This document shows positions 20,605 through 28,125 of a stretch of DNA of 59,547 nucleotides, piece by piece (positions within the stretch are counted from its first letter, which is position 1; each line of letters begins with the position of its first letter). The position numbers were made by a program, and so were the translations under genes. A model generated the notes under the pieces. That model had not been told where the DNA came from. It saw only the letters and a list, made by a program, of their open reading frames with translations, and ran no database searches. The stretch is from an uncultured Rhodospirillales bacterium (lineage in GTDB: Bacteria > Pseudomonadota > Alphaproteobacteria > Azospirillales > Azospirillaceae), in assembly GCA_903927615.1 (NCBI GenBank), contig CAIYNU010000091.1, positions 1-59,547 of the forward strand. Direction: 5' to 3'.

Positions 20605-21270
20605 ATGATGACGGTACCAGCGCACCGAGCGCGGCCAATGGCCGGCGGCCTAGTTGCCCTGATTGTTGGGCTCGGACTTTCACAGCAGCTGGTGTCGCCG
20701 GCGTTGGCAAGCGAGAATGATTGCCATACCAATACCTCGGTGGTCGAACGCCAGCTTCACATTCCCAACGGTTTGCTTCTTGCCATATCCCTCGTGGAAA
20801 GCGGGGTTGACGGCGTCCCCCAGCCCAACGCGCTCTCATTCGGTGAGCGCTCCCTGGTCGCCCGCAGTCGGGACGACGCGGTGCATCGGCTGGAGACTGC
20901 CAATGGCGGGGTTCGTAATGACGCCTATGTCGGTTGCATGCAGCTCTCGGTCCGCCATCACCGGAGCGCCTTTCATTCGCTGGACAAGATGATGGATCCG
21001 CGGGCCAATATCTGGTACGCCGGGCGGATGCTGCTGCGCTTGCGCGGCGAGACCGGCAATTGGTCGCGGGCCGTGGCGCGCTATCAGGGCGGTTCGCAAC
21101 GCCAGTCCCATGCTTATGTGTGCCGGGTCTGGAATCATCTGGCGGAACTCGATTGGAACAGCGCCAAGACGCTGGAGCCCCGTCGCTGCGGCGAGATGTC
21201 GCCACCGGAGATCGCACCCAAGACCCGTCGGGCCTTCCATCAGGCCCAGGTTGCGGCGGCGCCGGAATAA
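20605..21270 (+). CDS. Lytic transglycosylase-like (SLT) protein
   Basis: About 221 residues with an N-terminal signal peptide (GGLVALIVGLGLSQQLVSPALASE) and a lysozyme-like SLT domain. The catalytic Glu is in LLLAISLVESGVDG (near residue 65). YVGCMQLS corresponds to the GlmQi-type motif, and NIWYAGRMLLRLRGETGNWSRAVARYQGG is the family helix-plus-YxGG block. It should cleave peptidoglycan glycan strands to anhydromuropeptides in the periplasm. Two ATG codons in tandem (20605, 20608) follow AGGGAG. A hairpin just upstream of that site might tune translation. The C-terminal 35 residues look disordered. Confidence 0.85.
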   Translation: MMTVPAHRARPMAGGLVALIVGLGLSQQLVSPALASENDCHTNTSVVERQLHIPNGLLLAISLVESGVDGVPQPNALSFGERSLVARSRDDAVHRLETANGGVRNDAYVGCMQLSVRHHRSAFHSLDKMMDPRANIWYAGRMLLRLRGETGNWSRAVARYQGGSQRQSHAYVCRVWNHLAELDWNSAKTLEPRRCGEMSPPEIAPKTRRAFHQAQVAAAPE

Positions 21271-21475
21271 GACCCAGGGGCCTTGTCCCCTCCCGGGAGA
21301 CGGTGGCCTTCGGCCCCGTCACCCCCATTTTCTCTATTCTGTGGCAATCGCCGAACCAGGCGGCTATCGTCCGGCCCGATGGGAACGCGTGCGCGGCTGC
21401 ATCGGACGTTCCGGACGTCGGCGGCCGGCCGGTTCCCAGGGTGGCGCTGGCGCGCATCTTGGAGTAAGGCCGGTC

Positions 21476-24088
21476 ATGAAAGCGTCTGATATTCGGAGCC
21501 GTTTCCTCGATTTTTTCCAGGCGCGCGGACATACGCTGGTCAAACCCGGCAATATCATCCCGGCCAATGATCCGACGCTGCTGTTCACCAACGCCGGCAT
21601 GAACCAGTTCAAGGATGCGCTGCTGGGCCGCGAAAAGCGGTCCTACAGCCGGGCCCTGTCGTGCCAGCCCTGCATGCGGGTTGGCGGCAAGCACAACGAT
21701 CTTGACGCGGTGGGCAAAGACGGGCGCCACCACACTTGGTTCGAGATGCTGGGCAACTGGTCGTTCGGCGACTATTACAAAGAAGAAGCCATCTGTTATG
21801 CCTGGGACTTGGTCACGCGGGACTATGGGGTGGACACGTCGCGGATTTACGCGGCGGTGTATAAGGACGACGACGAGTCCTGGGGGCTGTGGAAAAAGAT
21901 TGCGGGTCTGCCCGACAGCCGGATCGTGCGGCTGGGCGACGTAGCCCAGGGCGACGAAGAGAATTTCTGGTCCATGGGGCCGACCGGTCCCTGCGGCCCC
22001 TGCACCGAGCTGTACATCGATCAGGGCGAGGCGTTCGGTCCCGACGTGGTTGGCGGCCCGACCGACCGGTATCTGGAATTCTGGAATCTGGTGTTCATGG
22101 AGTTCGACCGCCAGGAAGACGGCTCGATGCTGCCGTTGCCCATGAGGAGCGTCGATACCGGCATGGGGCTGGAGCGCATCTCGGCGATCCTTCAGGGCAA
22201 GACCAACGTCTTCCACACCGATCTGTTCATGCCGATCATCGCCGAGGTGTGCGAACGGACCGGCCGCGACTTCACCGGCACCGATGCGCCGGCCATGTGC
22301 GTGGTCGCCGACCATATCCGCGGACTGACCTTCGTGCTGAATGACGGCGGCGAGTTCGACCGGGTCGGCCGCGGCTACGTGCTGCGCCGGATTCTGCGCC
22401 GGGCGGTGCTGCATGGCGACCAGTTGGGGATGAAGGAACCGTGGCTCTACACGCTGGTGCCGACGGTGGTGGCCACCACCGGCGCCTACCCGATTCCGGC
22501 CGAGCGGATGGCCATCATCCAGGCGACCATCCGCGACGAAGAAGCCAAGTTCTTCCGGACCCTCGATCGGGGACTGATCACCTTTAACCGGGTGGTCGAG
22601 GACACCCGGAGCGCGGGCTCCCGGGTGATCAGCGGCCCGGCGGCCTTTCAGCTTTACGATACCTATGGCTTTCCGGTGGACCTGACCCGCATCCTGGCCG
22701 AACAGCAGGCGATGGAAGTGGACAGCGCCGGCTTCGACCAGGAGTTGGAGCAGCAACGGTCGCGATCCAAGGCGGCGCAGGATTTCTACGACGCCGGCGG
22801 CTGGGTTCCGGTGGGCGAGGGCAGCGACGGCGGTTTTGCCGGCTATGATCTGGCGGCGCTGGATGTCCGGGTGCTGCGGTATCGGCCCCGGGCCGATGGC
22901 GGCGTCGATCTGATCCTGGACCGCACCCCCTTCTACATCGAAGGCGGCGGCGAGCAGACCGATCAGGGCCGGTTGGTCGGCAAGGCGGTGGACCTGGCGG
23001 TGGACGAGGTTCGGCGGATCGACGTCGGCGTGGTTCACGGCGCCCGCTGGCTGCGGGGCGGCATTGACGACCTGACGGCCGACCCGCTGCTGGTGGCCGA
23101 GGTGGATCGGGGCCGGCGGCAGGCCAAGGCCGCCCACCACACCGCGACCCACTTGCTCCACGCCGCGTTGCACGAGATCGTTGATCCGGGCGCCCGCCAG
23201 ATGGGATCGTTGGTGGCTTCGGATCGGTTGCGTTTTGATTTCGCGGCATCCCGGGCGCTGACCGCCGACGAATTGGCGCGCATCGAGGATCGGGTCAATG
23301 GCTGGATTCTGGACGACCACCCGGTGACCAAACAGCTCGACGTGCCCTACACCGAGGCGGTGGCGCGGGGCGCGATGGCGTTCTTTTCCGAGAATTATGG
23401 CGAAACCGTGCGGGTGGTTGAGGTGCCGACGGTCAGCCTGGAGCTGTGCGGCGGCAACCATGTGGCCCGGACCGGCGAAATCGGCAGCTTCCTGGTCCTG
23501 TCGGAACAGAGCGTCGGGGCCGGGGTGCGGCGAATCGAAGCCGTGACTCACCGGGCCGCGGTGTCCCGGGTGCGCGAGGTCCGCGAGTTGCTGGCGGCGT
23601 CGGCCTCGGTGCTTAACATCCCGATCGAACAATTGCCCGGCCGGATCACCCAGCTTGCCGAGGACCTGAAGAAGCTGGCCAAGGACAAGGACCAGCTCTC
23701 GCGCCAAGCCTTGACCGGCAAGGGTGCCGACGCCCTGCTGGACGGCGCCGAAACCGTGGCCGGCGTGCTGATCCAGGTGAAATTGGTGCCCGGCGCCGAT
23801 CCCAATCTGTTGAAGCAGGTCCTGGACACGCTCCGCAACCAGCATGCCGGGGGCGTCTTCGTGCTGATCACCGAGGCCGAGGGCCGCGGCAGCATCCTGA
23901 TTGGCTCCGGCGCCGATGCGGTCAAGCGCGGCCTCAAGGCCGGCGATTTGGCCCGGGATATTGCCCGGCAGGTTGGCTCGGGCGGCGGCGGCCGTCCCGA
24001 TTTCGCTCAGACCGGGTTCAAGGGCATCGACGCCGCGGCGGTGGTGGAAATTGCCTGGAAGACGGTGCGCGCGGCGGTCGGGGGCTGA
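21476..24088 (+). CDS. alaS: Alanyl-tRNA synthetase
   Basis: About 870 residues, close to the E. coli enzyme. It charges tRNA-Ala and clears mischarged Ser/Gly-tRNA. The start MKASDIRSRFLDFFQARGHT and the class II core (FTNAGMNQFKDALLG, CMRVGGKHNDLDAVG, RHHTWFEMLGNWSFGDY, DTGMGLERI) are intact. The editing domain has HHTATHLLHAALHE and CGGNHVARTGEIG, supplying the zinc ligands. The C-terminal DHHA1-like region ends with VGSGGGGRPDFAQTG. The ATG at 21476 has GGAG 11 nt upstream and is followed by the canonical N-terminus; the open frame before it is not coding. It is convergent with the decarboxylase gene, with a repeat element between them. Confidence 0.98.
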   Translation: MKASDIRSRFLDFFQARGHTLVKPGNIIPANDPTLLFTNAGMNQFKDALLGREKRSYSRALSCQPCMRVGGKHNDLDAVGKDGRHHTWFEMLGNWSFGDYYKEEAICYAWDLVTRDYGVDTSRIYAAVYKDDDESWGLWKKIAGLPDSRIVRLGDVAQGDEENFWSMGPTGPCGPCTELYIDQGEAFGPDVVGGPTDRYLEFWNLVFMEFDRQEDGSMLPLPMRSVDTGMGLERISAILQGKTNVFHTDLFMPIIAEVCERTGRDFTGTDAPAMCVVADHIRGLTFVLNDGGEFDRVGRGYVLRRILRRAVLHGDQLGMKEPWLYTLVPTVVATTGAYPIPAERMAIIQATIRDEEAKFFRTLDRGLITFNRVVEDTRSAGSRVISGPAAFQLYDTYGFPVDLTRILAEQQAMEVDSAGFDQELEQQRSRSKAAQDFYDAGGWVPVGEGSDGGFAGYDLAALDVRVLRYRPRADGGVDLILDRTPFYIEGGGEQTDQGRLVGKAVDLAVDEVRRIDVGVVHGARWLRGGIDDLTADPLLVAEVDRGRRQAKAAHHTATHLLHAALHEIVDPGARQMGSLVASDRLRFDFAASRALTADELARIEDRVNGWILDDHPVTKQLDVPYTEAVARGAMAFFSENYGETVRVVEVPTVSLELCGGNHVARTGEIGSFLVLSEQSVGAGVRRIEAVTHRAAVSRVREVRELLAASASVLNIPIEQLPGRITQLAEDLKKLAKDKDQLSRQALTGKGADALLDGAETVAGVLIQVKLVPGADPNLLKQVLDTLRNQHAGGVFVLITEAEGRGSILIGSGADAVKRGLKAGDLARDIARQVGSGGGGRPDFAQTGFKGIDAAAVVEIAWKTVRAAVGG

Positions 24089-24289: not shown

Positions 24290-25417
24290 CTAAATATAGT
24301 ACTCCTGCAACGGCGGAAAGCCGTTGAAGCCGATGGACGCATAGGTGGTGGTGTAGGCGCCGGTGGCGAGGATTTGCAGGCGGTCGCCGATCCGCAGATC
24401 CAGGGGCAGGCGGTAGTCGGCGCGTTCGTAAAGGACGTCGGCGCTGTCGCAACTGGGGCCGGCCAGAATCACCCGTTCGGTTTGGCCGGTGCGGTCGCAG
24501 TGGATCGGGTACTGGATCGCTTCGTCCATGGTTTCGGCCAGGCCGCCAAACTTGCCCACGTCGAGATAGACCCAGCGGCGGTCATCGTCGGCGGATTTGT
24601 GGGCGATCAGCACCACTTCACTTTCGATCACGCCGGCATTGCCGACCATGGCCCGACCGGGCTCGACGATGGTTTCGGGAATCCGGTTGCCGAAATGGGT
24701 GCGCAGCGCCTTGAAGATGGCCGCGCCGTAGGCTTCGGCCGAAGGGACGTCGTTGCGGTAGCGGGTGGGGAAGCCGCCGCCGAGATTGACCATCTTCAGT
24801 TCGACGCCCTCGGCTTCCAACTCCCGGAACAGCTGGGCGGTGGCGGCGAGCGCGGCATTCCATTGGCTGGGGTCGCGCTGCTGGGAGCCGACATGGAACG
24901 AGACCCCGAACGGCACCACGCCCAGGCCGGGGGCGCGCAACAGCAGGTCCCGGGCCATGGCCTCGTCGCACCCGAATTTCCGGGACAACGGCCATTCCGC
25001 ACCATCTCCGCTGGTGGCAATGCGGCAGAACACCCGGGCGCCCGGGGCCGCGGCGGCGATCTTCTCCAACTCGGCGATGCTGTCGAAGGCGAACAGGCGG
25101 ATGCCGCGGTCGTAGGCGCGGGCGATATCCACCTGCTTTTTGATGGTGTTGCCGTAAGAGATGCAGTTGGGGTGGGCGCCCGCGGCCAGCACCATGTCGA
25201 TCTCCTGGACACTGGCGGTGTCGAACGACGAGCCCAGCCGGACCAGCAGTTGCAGGATGTGCGGCGCCGGATTGGCCTTGACCGCATAATAAATGCGAGC
25301 ATCGGGCAGCGCCGTGGCCAAAGCGGTGTAATTCTCTTCCACAACGTCCAGGTCCAGGACCAGGCAAGGCGTTGCCGGACGTCGCTCCGCAAAAAAGCGC
25401 GCGATTTTCTCGTTCAT
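24290..25417 (-). CDS. Ornithine/lysine-type decarboxylase (PLP fold III)
   Basis: About 375 residues, the size of the alanine-racemase-fold ornithine decarboxylases common in Alphaproteobacteria. The PLP lysine lies in IYYAVKANP (K47). Other signatures are FDTASVQEIDMVLAAG, FHVGSQQRDPSQW, MVNLGGGFPTRY, EPGRAMVGNAG and GPSCDSADVLYE, the last giving the catalytic Cys/Asp pair of the partner subunit. It should make putrescine from ornithine and perhaps cadaverine from lysine; the sequence alone does not settle this. GGAG lies 7 nt before the ATG. A small reading frame and hairpin in its leader suggest translational or attenuation control. Confidence 0.92.
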   Translation of the reverse strand: MNEKIARFFAERRPATPCLVLDLDVVEENYTALATALPDARIYYAVKANPAPHILQLLVRLGSSFDTASVQEIDMVLAAGAHPNCISYGNTIKKQVDIARAYDRGIRLFAFDSIAELEKIAAAAPGARVFCRIATSGDGAEWPLSRKFGCDEAMARDLLLRAPGLGVVPFGVSFHVGSQQRDPSQWNAALAATAQLFRELEAEGVELKMVNLGGGFPTRYRNDVPSAEAYGAAIFKALRTHFGNRIPETIVEPGRAMVGNAGVIESEVVLIAHKSADDDRRWVYLDVGKFGGLAETMDEAIQYPIHCDRTGQTERVILAGPSCDSADVLYERADYRLPLDLRIGDRLQILATGAYTTTYASIGFNGFPPLQEYYI

Positions 25418-25476
25418 CCCGATCTCCAGGATAAAGCGGTTATGTCAACGGGTGAGTATGCCGGGGTCTTGTTGCA

Positions 25477-25498
25477 CGAACGCGCAATTACGCGTTCG
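25477..25498 (-). promoter_or_regulatory. Leader hairpin upstream of the decarboxylase gene
   Basis: Perfect 8-bp inverted repeat (CGAACGCG/CGCGTTCG) with a 6-nt loop, 60 nt before the decarboxylase start. The stop codon of the preceding small frame falls in the loop. No T-run follows, so control by masking the ribosome-binding site or by ribosome stalling fits better than a simple intrinsic terminator. Confidence 0.55.
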
Positions 25499-25604
25499 CG
25501 CCCGTACTTATCGGTCTGACGGGACTGACCGGGGCCGACAACGCCGGCTCGGATCGAGGAGTCTGACGGGACGGCGGGAACCCACCGACAACAACATGAA
25601 ACAT
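25488..25604 (-). CDS. Putative 38-residue leader peptide before the decarboxylase
   Basis: A short frame starting at the ATG at 25604 with an excellent TTGGAGG site 5 nt upstream. It ends in TAA inside the loop of the leader hairpin, 70 nt before the decarboxylase start. The peptide begins MFHVVVGGFPPSRQTPRSEP and is rich in Pro, Ser and Arg. Known speF-type ornithine decarboxylase genes are controlled by leader elements, including an ornithine-sensing arrest peptide in enterobacteria; this peptide does not resemble that one. Function as a leader is inferred from position and ribosome-binding site only. The rest of 25605-25794 shows no further gene. Confidence 0.45.
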   Translation of the reverse strand: MFHVVVGGFPPSRQTPRSEPALSAPVSPVRPISTGANA

Positions 25605-25794
25605 CGTAACCTCCAAGTCGGTCGCCTTATTCGGGCGGCGGGTCGGGGATACGCGTTACGTCGTTGCATAACCACTTCTCGAGCAGGTCGAGGGCGGGCC
25701 AGCGGCACGTGCGCTTGCGAGTGAGCCGTAGATACGTCGAACCGGCGGGCTTGAAAAGGGGAAAAAAACGCCCAGGACAAAAATTTCGCTTCTG

Positions 25795-26457
25795 TTAACC
25801 ATCCGATAGGCCGATGCGCAACAGTTCCGCGCCGTGCCGGCGCAGCCACGCCCGGGAGAGGGCGGCGTCCGGAACCAATCGGGTCACCAGCGCCCAGAAC
25901 CGCGGCGAGTGGTTCAACTCCTGGAGATGGGCGACCTCGTGGGCGACCACATAGGTCAAGACCGGGTCGGGGGTCAGGATCAGCCGCCACGAGAACGACA
26001 GGCCGCCGGCCGACGAACAACTGCCCCAGCGGCTGCGGGTGTCGCGCAGCGTGATGCCGCGAATCCGGGCGCCCAGGGTTTCGGCCATGTGGCGTGCCCG
26101 GTCGGTCAGCACCTGTCGCGCCTCGGCGACCAGCAGGTCGCGGACCCGTCGGGGCAGATGCTCCGGCCCGCCACCGACCCGAATTTCGCCGTCCAGCCGG
26201 CGACCGGGGCCGCGCCAGGCGGGGTCGTGGCGAATCACATGGTCGAGCCCCAGCACCGGCACCCGGGCGCCGTCGATAAACGGCCGGGCCGCCGGCAGTG
26301 CCGCCAGCCGACTGCGAATCCAACCGGCGTGGCGGCCGACGAAGCGAATCGCCTCGGCTTCGTCCAGGCCGGCGGGCACCACCACCTGAATCAGGCCGCG
26401 GGCAGGGTCGACGCGCAGCGTCATCCGGCGGGCGCGCAGGCTTTCGCGCAATTCCAA
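25795..26457 (-). CDS. YgjP-type (M48-like) zinc metallopeptidase
   Basis: About 220 residues. The catalytic HEVAH (near residues 173-177) lies in YVVAHEVAHLQELNHSPRFW, and the upstream RDTRSRWGSCSSAGGLSFSWRLI is the hallmark of the YgjP/DUF45 group. The substrate is unknown. No ATG begins the conserved region. The TTG at 26457 is a guess, and upstream in-frame CTG codons could extend it by about ten residues to include LTIGGLPVPLELR, which fits the usual family N-terminus. It lies 62 nt after ccmB on the same strand, where ccmC would often be found. Confidence 0.85.
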   Translation of the reverse strand: MELRESLRARRMTLRVDPARGLIQVVVPAGLDEAEAIRFVGRHAGWIRSRLAALPAARPFIDGARVPVLGLDHVIRHDPAWRGPGRRLDGEIRVGGGPEHLPRRVRDLLVAEARQVLTDRARHMAETLGARIRGITLRDTRSRWGSCSSAGGLSFSWRLILTPDPVLTYVVAHEVAHLQELNHSPRFWALVTRLVPDAALSRAWLRRHGAELLRIGLSDG

Positions 26458-26519: not shown

Positions 26520-27185
26520 CTATTCCAGGGCTTGACGCAGGGCGGCGGCGGCGGCCATCGCCGTCAGGGGCAGCGCGGCCGCCAGCAAGGCGCCCAGGAT
26601 CAACAGGTGCGGCCGGACACTCAATCCTCCCAACGCCGAATCGATGGCGGCGGCGCCAAAGATCAGCACCGGAATAAACAACGGCAGGATCAGCAGCGAA
26701 ATCAGCACCCCGCCCCGCCGCGCGCCCAAGGTCAGGGCGGCGCCGATGCTGCCGATCAGACTCAGGCTGGGGGTGCCCAACAGCAAGGTCAGTTCCAGGG
26801 TTCCGAAACCGTCGCGGTTCATGCCCAGCAACACCGCCAACACCGGCGCCGCCACCAGTAACGGCACGCCCGTCACCAACCAGTGAGCGGTCGCCTTGGC
26901 CAGCACGACCAACTCCAGGGGCAGACCGCCCAACGCCATCAACTCCAGCGAGCCATCTTCGAAATCGGTCTGGAACAGCCGGTCCAGGGACAGCAGCGAG
27001 GCCAGCAACGCCGCCACCCAGATGACTCCCGCGGCGATGCGGGCCAGCAGGTTGGGCTCGGGGCCCAGGCCAAACGGGAACAGCACCACCACCAGGACGA
27101 AGAACATCACGGCGATGGTGGCATCGGAGCCCTGGCGCAGCGCCAGTGTCAGATCACGCCCGACCAGGCGGCCAAACCGGCTCAT
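26520..27185 (-). CDS. ccmB: Heme exporter protein CcmB
   Basis: About 221 residues with six hydrophobic segments. The opening RLVGRDLTLALRQGSDATIAVMFFVLVVVLFPFGLGPEP and the LLSLDRLFQTDFEDGSLELM block are standard for CcmB. It is the membrane part of the CcmAB ABC complex of cytochrome c maturation system I, which releases holo-CcmE from CcmCD. The start at 27185 overlaps the stop of ccmA in an ATGA quartet, so the two are translationally coupled. Genes ccmC, ccmD and ccmE do not follow here; they must be elsewhere. Confidence 0.95.
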   Translation of the reverse strand: MSRFGRLVGRDLTLALRQGSDATIAVMFFVLVVVLFPFGLGPEPNLLARIAAGVIWVAALLASLLSLDRLFQTDFEDGSLELMALGGLPLELVVLAKATAHWLVTGVPLLVAAPVLAVLLGMNRDGFGTLELTLLLGTPSLSLIGSIGAALTLGARRGGVLISLLILPLFIPVLIFGAAAIDSALGGLSVRPHLLILGALLAAALPLTAMAAAAALRQALE

Positions 27186-27838
27186 GACGGCCGTCCGTCC
27201 GGATCGCCCGGCGTGGGGGCGAAGGCGTCCAGGGGCAGAGCCCGGTTGCCGGGTAACGGCAGGTCGGTATGGGTGGCCGCCACCACCATGCCCCCGCCGG
27301 CGCGGTGTTCGGTCAGGGCTTCTTCGAGTCGGGCGATGGCGGCGTGGTCGAGCCCGACCGTGGGTTCGTCCAGCAGCCACAGGGGCGCGGGCGCCAGCAG
27401 GAGTCGGGCCAGGTTGAGCCGGTGCTTTTGACCCGCGGAAAAGTAGCGGGCCGGGACCGCCGCCAACCGCTCCAGCCCGAAGCGGTCCAGCGCCCGCCGC
27501 GCCTGTCGCTCGGGTCGGGCATGCCCGTGCAGGGCCGCCCAGAAGCCCAGATTCTCCTCGGCGGTCAACATCGGCTTGATGGCGTCCAGGTGTCCGACAT
27601 AGCGCAGCCGGGCCCGGTGGGCGTCGGGATCATCGGCCACCGGCGCGCCATCCCAACTCAGTCCGCCCCGCCACGGCCGCAACAACAACGCCATCATGCG
27701 CAGCAGACTGGATTTGCCGCTGGCATTGGGTCCGGTCAGCACCAGGGCCTCGCCGGCGGCAAGCCGAAAGGTCAGGCCGACGAACACCAGCCGTTCGCCG
27801 CGCAGACAGGACAGGTGGGAACCGGCAAACTCGGTCAT
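27182..27838 (-). CDS. ccmA: Cytochrome c biogenesis ATP-binding protein CcmA
   Basis: About 218 residues, a small ABC ATPase of the usual CcmA size. Walker A is GPNASGKSSLL, the signature region FSAGQKHRLNLARLLL, and Walker B LWLLDEPTVGLD. It powers the CcmB membrane subunit during heme handling for c-type cytochromes. The ATG at 27838 is chosen, with a GTG at 27871 as an alternative; neither has a strong ribosome-binding site. The gene is the first of a leftward unit ccmA-ccmB-metallopeptidase. Confidence 0.93.
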   Translation of the reverse strand: MTEFAGSHLSCLRGERLVFVGLTFRLAAGEALVLTGPNASGKSSLLRMMALLLRPWRGGLSWDGAPVADDPDAHRARLRYVGHLDAIKPMLTAEENLGFWAALHGHARPERQARRALDRFGLERLAAVPARYFSAGQKHRLNLARLLLAPAPLWLLDEPTVGLDHAAIARLEEALTEHRAGGGMVVAATHTDLPLPGNRALPLDAFAPTPGDPDGRPS

Positions 27839-28125
27839 GGCGCGGGTGATTAACTCTATGCTCACGACCACGCCGTGTGGTCAGGCTTGACATCCGCCTG
27901 CTTAGCGCACCCCAGGGCCGGAGGCAAGGCGATGCCTGCCGACCGACTCATCGCTGGCCGCATCAAGACCGAGTCAAGGCTTTTTACCCCTGACCGCCAA
28001 CCAGGACCATGATGGTCCGAGCCCCGGCCTGACGGTATGGTGTCCCGAGGCCCCCGGCCTTTGGTCGGTCCAGGGTGAAACCCAGGGGCGCGCGCGGGGG
28101 CAGAGCGAGACAACGGGAGACAAGA

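Follow-up and report, generated by a model that had tools for sequence, protein, structure and literature searches.

The leader of a decarboxylase gene (odc) in the 59,547-nucleotide stretch of DNA analysed here, referred to as the window, combines an alpha-r45-like RNA domain with a 38-codon upstream open reading frame (uORF). Judging from sequence comparison, we consider it probable (about 0.6) that this odc 5' leader is a cis-acting, translation-dependent attenuator of odc that follows the logic of speFL/orf34 and mdtU with a different leader. The leader is not filed as ar45 or speF, since the covariance-model tests for both failed. A first-pass annotation had suggested leader control before odc, and the leader present there is indeed conserved and has a uORF that looks translated, in the slot that the speF RNA takes in other Alphaproteobacteria.

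The odc gene and its surroundings

The odc gene (24290-25417, minus strand) encodes a fold-III PLP decarboxylase of 375 aa, of the ornithine or lysine/ornithine type. The annotated ornithine-type decarboxylase is borne out by a match of the product to Pfam Orn_Arg_deC_N at 3e-54; the closest solved structures are lysine/ornithine decarboxylases (6e-64), and none of the NCBIfam equivalogs scored above its cut-off. The uORF, the hairpin at its stop, the leader motifs and odc all lie on the minus strand. The next same-strand gene upstream, coding for a YgjP-like metallopeptidase, ends at 25795, which leaves 377 nt before odc. Further upstream on this strand (26520-27871) CcmB and an ABC ATPase, probably CcmA, are encoded, and an alanyl-tRNA synthetase gene (21110-24088, plus strand) faces odc. 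Upstream of the region originally annotated, the leader extends for about 120 nt more, into the alpha-r45-like domain. Searched against a plasmid collection, it gave no match.

A translated-looking frame with a conserved end

The uORF (25488-25604, minus strand) runs from an ATG at 25604-25602 to a TAA at 25490-25488, and relatives have uORFs at the same place. A GGAGG Shine-Dalgarno (SD) sequence lies at 25614-25610, five bases 5' of the ATG, and 70 nt separate the stop from the odc ATG (25417), so that the 38-codon frame, its strong ribosome-binding site and its distance to the decarboxylase all stand as first annotated. The encoded peptide, MFHVVVGGFPPSRQTPRSEPALSAPVSPVRPISTGANA (38 aa), has no match in Pfam or NCBIfam. 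Conservation of start, stop and stem in close relatives had been named beforehand as a check; in a genus comparison of the window and four other genomes (L002-L005), with odc and leader read in each, all three are kept in 5/5 genomes, as is the SD. The frame was also said to hold a 12-nt repeat, GTCTGACGGGAC. Both copies are present (25514-25525 and 25561-25572) and rare by chance (8/2000 mononucleotide shuffles), but the repeat is not conserved in the genus: the four relatives have no copy at fewer than two mismatches, and it was rejected as a functional element. At three loci (L076, L140, L141) a uORF-like frame extends into the odc start (ATGA), an arrangement that would couple both directly.

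The uORF looks translated. Indel and substitution counts were taken from 47 near-neighbour pairs, and 18/26 indels within the uORF are multiples of three, compared with 9/67 downstream and 4/27 upstream; an earlier run with looser gap costs, which showed no frame signal, is not trusted. In the middle of the uORF the three codon positions are substituted at similar rates (0.157/0.172/0.177), and synonymous changes make up 58/177 of the single-change codons there, with slightly higher shares at the start (23/60) and at the end (27/72) and 27% expected. These values suggest little peptide constraint. First codons resembling M-(F/V/L)-x-V-V-V-G-G are common in the window's family, with exceptions, which is partly due to a hairpin in codons 7-13 that shows two-sided changes. 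The conservation of codons in relatives, named beforehand as support, is found in the frame and at the uORF ends, which are kept, but not in the middle, which drifts. Constraint thus appears to rest on the start, the frame and the end of the uORF, and a pause site would fit this pattern better than a long arrest peptide.

Near the stop, 74 of 103 distinct uORFs have AGT in frame with AYN as the next codon (Ser, then Ile/Met/Thr). In the window this C-terminal AGTAY motif reads AGT-ACG (Ser-Thr; 25503-25508, minus strand). It was picked by eye on a first set and tested on a second set of 45 distinct uORFs (77 loci minus three without a uORF, namely L261, L291 and L292, 27 repeated peptides and two duplicates), uORFs shorter than 15 codons being left out of the counts. 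AGTAY falls within the last 12 codons in 33/58 uORFs of the first set and in 41/45 of the second, about half of which come from one clade, so that independent events number fewer than 45. The motif is in frame 0 in 74/74 cases and never in frames 1 or 2, and across lineages its AGT lies 2 to 7 codons 5' of the stop. AGT accounts for 59/238 serine codons in the uORFs versus 24/883 in odc, and 23/103 uORFs end in SS[IM][GR]. AGTAY is missing from 29/103 uORFs. Three loci (L010, L011, L015) have TGT-AYN at apparently the same place and a fourth (L009) has AGT-CCN; in all four, the codon seems to have kept its wobble U.

RNA structure around the stop and start of the uORF

The stop codon sits at the tip of a 12-bp hairpin (25474-25501, minus strand) identified by folding and genus comparison, in which 25501-25490 pairs with 25485-25474 and two of the 12 pairs are G.U. 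The frame had been described as ending in the loop of an 8-bp hairpin; the AA of the TAA does lie in the loop, but the stem is longer than stated. A 70-nt fold around this hairpin has a z of -2.83, with 2/200 shuffles equally stable; the 243-nt leader as a whole shows no extra stability against shuffles (z -0.71, 50/200). Within the genus 55/55 cells are paired (11 pairs counted, five genomes). The compensatory stem changes that the first-pass annotation had proposed as support are seen as two-sided changes in two pairs, a result that 88/500 shuffles equal at this sample of five sequences. As a general rule, the placement of the stop codon in a hairpin was rejected: 99/103 uORFs have it enclosed by prediction against 95.8% of shuffles, which is not above chance, and predicted stems with 5 or 7 pairs spanning the stop occur less often than in shuffles. 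Compared with a stretch farther downstream, the stop region does have the greater stability (mean z -1.45 versus -0.29).

Around the uORF start (25605-25653, minus strand), RNAalifold predicts that a CGUA.CCC strand pairs with the GGAGG SD, with a hairpin between them. The changes in this pairing are one-sided only and its permutation z of -1.84 lends modest support. Across 26 leaders, GCAACG is predicted to pair with UGUUGU of codons 3-5 (permutation z -2.2), and five of these six pairs never vary and are therefore silent as evidence. True partners thus have only a slight advantage over permuted ones in the GCAACG and SD pairings (z -2.2 and -1.8). The hairpin in uORF codons 7-11 (GGTGG/CCGCC, RNAalifold helix 5; 25573-25586, minus strand) has changes on both sides in 3/6 pairs, with a permutation z of -5.1. 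For the whole predicted structure, which is derived from the same rows, 0/500 shuffles reach the observed covariation; the permutation tests preserve the make-up of columns and not relatedness. Pairing between the uORF and the odc start, weighed as a common mechanism, gave mixed results. Permuted partners give z values of -3.1 for the uORF end and -4.1 for its middle, but when the uORFs themselves are shuffled the signal is weak (56 leaders, mean z -0.6; control -0.09; window -1.0).

The 5' domain, the promoter and the spacer

Upstream of the uORF, the leader is marked by two bookends in common with ar45, CACGTGCC at 25704-25711 and GCAACGACG at 25659-25667 (both minus strand), which are invariant in the 26 leaders of alignment A2. 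The two flanks of ar45 are CACGUGCC and GCAACGAC, and the window has these bookends, CACGUGCC...GCAACGAC, 5' of odc. With GCAACGA as the short form of the second bookend, whose nine-base form is GCAACGACG, CACGTGCC followed by GCAACGA occurs upstream of odc in 136/195 alphaproteobacterial loci and is missing from 59. Rfam ar45 (RF02347) reaches 12.1 bits at 25647-25720, below the gathering threshold of 40 (E 6.7 in 601 bases), and the match is kept as a lead only; with stricter filters, 0/59 genomes scored over the cut-off. A score for STnc420 at 25385-25435 was also sub-threshold and was rejected.

The outer stem of the domain is GACGC/GCGUC in several lineages; its ar45 form is GCCC/GGGC. 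The duplex energy of the stem is -7.53, versus -6.62 (sd 0.16) for permuted partners (30 rounds, 113 distinct leaders). In the window it is weak, with about three pairs by inspection and no U-run after it, and a TTTT within 30 nt past GCAACGACG occurs in only 12/56 uORF leaders. Six loci from several lineages outside the Azospirillaceae (L264, L168, L266, L272, L276, L181) have a U-run after the 3' strand of the outer stem, for example GCGUCCUUUUUGG. Where a U-run resembling the end of ar45 follows just past GCAACGACG, an attenuator ahead of the uORF is possible.

A -10-like box, TATCTA (25729-25734, minus strand), at a position common to relatives points to a transcription start near 25722. 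The -10-like pattern is present in 77/101 leaders and lies 21-23 nt before CACGTGCC in 53, as counted without a chance control; a strict sigma-70 scan of the window leader returned no promoter. The 5' bookend holds an 8-bp DNA palindrome, GCACGTGC (25712-25705), about 10 nt past the putative start, which may have a DNA-binding role. At the other end of the leader, the spacer from the stop hairpin to the odc start (25418-25473, minus strand) contains the odc SD (GGAG) and is C-rich and G-poor, with 34% C and 19% G in the window. C minus G averages +0.150 in the spacers of 57 leaders versus +0.014 (sd 0.104) in a control drawn from the regions upstream of 67 long ATG frames in the window, not all of which are genes. 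Rho sites are C-rich and G-poor. An intrinsic terminator between uORF and odc was also considered, and the scan of the window leader came back empty.

Distribution and exchange with the speF RNA

A covariance model, R1, built from the core and the uORF start (107 positions, 27 sequences) matches the window at 25566-25673 (minus strand; E 2.7e-22), the window leader itself being one of the 27 rows. At E <= 0.01 it finds one match each in 80/82 genomes of the order, many of them model rows or near kin; the two misses (G011, G013) have only distant decarboxylase matches and no close odc. For 33 genomes coordinates of both are available, and in 33/33 the match precedes odc in the same orientation. 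Class-wide, R1 was found in 14/385 genomes drawn, which indicates a local exact core and bookends of wider reach. Three genomes (G120, G155, G263) have two odc each, one with the leader and one without.

The window's uORF leader lies directly 5' of odc, the speF-type location. A covariance-model search had been proposed to show whether the RNA is speF, and the answer is negative: Rfam RF00518 does not match the window leader, and it exceeded its cut-off in 0/59 relatives searched with stricter filters. Among 14 loci scanned with Rfam, five (Rhizobium, Mesorhizobium, Phyllobacterium, Brucella and Hoeflea) have ar45 (143-165 bits) followed 8 or 9 nt on by speF (87-119 bits), L091, L153 and L124 have both at lower scores, L149 has speF alone and five have neither. 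The order names used for loci are presumed from the genera in the record titles.

Sorted by what follows GCAACGA, and with leader classes that rest on simple patterns written by ourselves, the 136 leaders comprise 62 with an SD-led ATG uORF, 64 speF-like ones, 10 with neither and 0 with both; the 131 distinct leaders with both bookends divide into 58 uORF, 63 speF-like, 10 neither and again 0 with both. Since the two never occur together behind GCAACGA, the uORF appears to occupy the place of speF. A TTG-started uORF within the Hyphomicrobiales speF motif was tried and rejected, as its length ranges widely, from 12 to 84 codons, none is listed for several loci and another frame is read there in L164 and L166. 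At one locus with a leaderless odc (L084), an ORF with saccharopine-dehydrogenase domains, probably a homospermidine synthase, lies shortly before the gene (2-1177); by eye, L063 and L056 resemble this arrangement.

Proposed mechanism and alternative explanations

As a translation-dependent attenuator, the leader would work as follows. RNA around the uORF start, with an SD able to pair with CGUA.CCC, would control ribosome entry. A ribosome translating the uORF would slow on reaching either the Ser(AGT)-Ile/Met/Thr codons or the stop codon, and the slowed ribosome would decide whether transcription or translation of odc continues, Rho acting on the C-rich spacer in the transcription branch. 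The signal might be ornithine, lysine or a polyamine. A broader and clearly more tentative reading treats alphaproteobacterial odc leaders as one ancient two-part regulator, whose alpha-r45-type 5' domain is fixed and whose second sensor can be exchanged: Hyphomicrobiales and some other orders would use the speF RNA, other lineages the uORF. Here the uORF would act via a wobble-read AGU (Ser-Ile/Met/Thr) near its stop, in an ornithine- or polyamine-dependent pause of an undescribed kind.

The sensor could instead be the alpha-r45-like domain itself, binding a protein or ligand like a riboswitch and controlling either whether the uORF SD is accessible or whether transcription terminates past the outer stem, with the uORF only relaying the signal by coupling. 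The 5' bookends are better conserved than the peptide, the outer stem changes from GACGC/GCGUC in some lineages to GCCC/GGGC in others, pairing of the SD is possible, and alpha-r45 ends in an outer stem and then U's. We nevertheless regard this explanation as unlikely, given the roughly three-pair outer stem and the missing U-run in the window, the TTTT in just 12/56 uORF leaders, and the lack of in vitro binding of polyamine-pathway metabolites to speF RNA as reported in PMC7717549. Equally doubtful is a ligand-dependent arrest peptide, in which a nascent C-terminal S-S-I/M together with ornithine or a polyamine would stop the ribosome as in SpeFL or TnaC. An AGT kept in frame, 2 to 7 codons 5' of the stop and across lineages, would agree with it, as does uORF control of the same enzyme class in gammaproteobacteria (excerpts of PMC6386406 and PMC7815308). 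The peptide, however, is not conserved from codon 15 to the last ten codons, and it is the AGT codon that is kept and not merely serine, with TGT at apparently the same place in some lineages; this indicates the codon or the RNA as much as the peptide.

An independent trans-acting sRNA of the alpha-r45 type next to a chance ORF is highly improbable. In S. meliloti, SmrC45 is reported as an Hfq-bound transcript of its own (PMC2780559, PMC2848018), and in Bartonella ar45 and speF are reported to run separately (PMC7717549); against this stand the conserved frame and C-terminal motif of the uORF, the absence of a terminator in the window leader scan, and the fact that the leader accompanies odc. 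The attenuator reading remains the one we prefer.

Novelty and implications

Polyamine-gene uORFs and the orphan RNAs speF and alpha-r45 are already known kinds of element. Within the open-licence literature searched, three things are new: alphaproteobacterial odc leaders that contain a uORF, the AGT-AYN motif with which this uORF ends, and a single 5' domain behind which uORF and speF replace each other. No paper on such a uORF was found there, and the main text of the S. meliloti ribosome-profiling study PMC10117765 mentions neither speF, odc, SMc02983 nor polyamine. If correct, uORF control of polyamine enzymes, known in enterobacteria, would extend to a second class of bacteria, in which the peptide ends in a motif of its own and offers a short codon-level target for mutation. 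With the uORF taking the position of speF after a shared 5' domain, speF and alpha-r45 also become testable, the same signal being expected. Should the two-part regulator be real, the function of these orphan RNAs could be read from the uORF type.

Comparison with known systems

The speF RNA was reportedly named by Corbino and colleagues. Alpha-r45 dates from 2007 as SmrC45, whose 5' end has been mapped and which was assigned a length of 181 nt (excerpts of PMC2780559), and SmrC45 and speF form one locus adjoining SMc02983 (PMC2573895, in part). In Bartonella, ar45 and speF are neighbouring transcripts seen separately, and polyamine-pathway metabolites were not shown to bind speF RNA (PMC7717549). 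Both RNAs are still described as of unknown function.

The leader shares features with two enterobacterial systems. mdtU, upstream of E. coli mdtJI, is a 34-codon uORF whose stop lies 106 nt upstream and whose conservation is strongest at the C-terminus; its control depends on spermidine and Rho. It governs a spermidine exporter, and no alpha-r45-like domain is mentioned in the accessible part of the source (PMC7815308). In Salmonella and E. coli, speFL/orf34 is, like the window's frame, a short uORF before an ornithine decarboxylase gene, of 34 versus 38 codons; its start lies 484 nt before that of the gene, compared with 187 nt in the window. For Salmonella orf34/speF, the involvement of Rho, RNA refolding and a polyamine-pathway metabolite is described (excerpts of PMC6386406); for the window leader it is the anatomy and its conservation that are shown, and the uORF middle is little conserved.

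The closest parallels to the 5' half of the leader are found within the Alphaproteobacteria. Alpha-r45/SmrC45 (RF02347), 5' of odc in Hyphomicrobiales, has the same place, bookends and order as the window leader, and its outer stem is at the same place in the leaders of other lineages. The bookend starts are 111-130 nt apart in most Rfam-matching leaders and 44 nt apart in the window, and alpha-r45 ends in a U-run, whereas the window leader has none and leads into the uORF. In other leaders the speF RNA (RF00518) stands between the alpha-r45-type domain and odc, in the slot that holds the uORF in the window.
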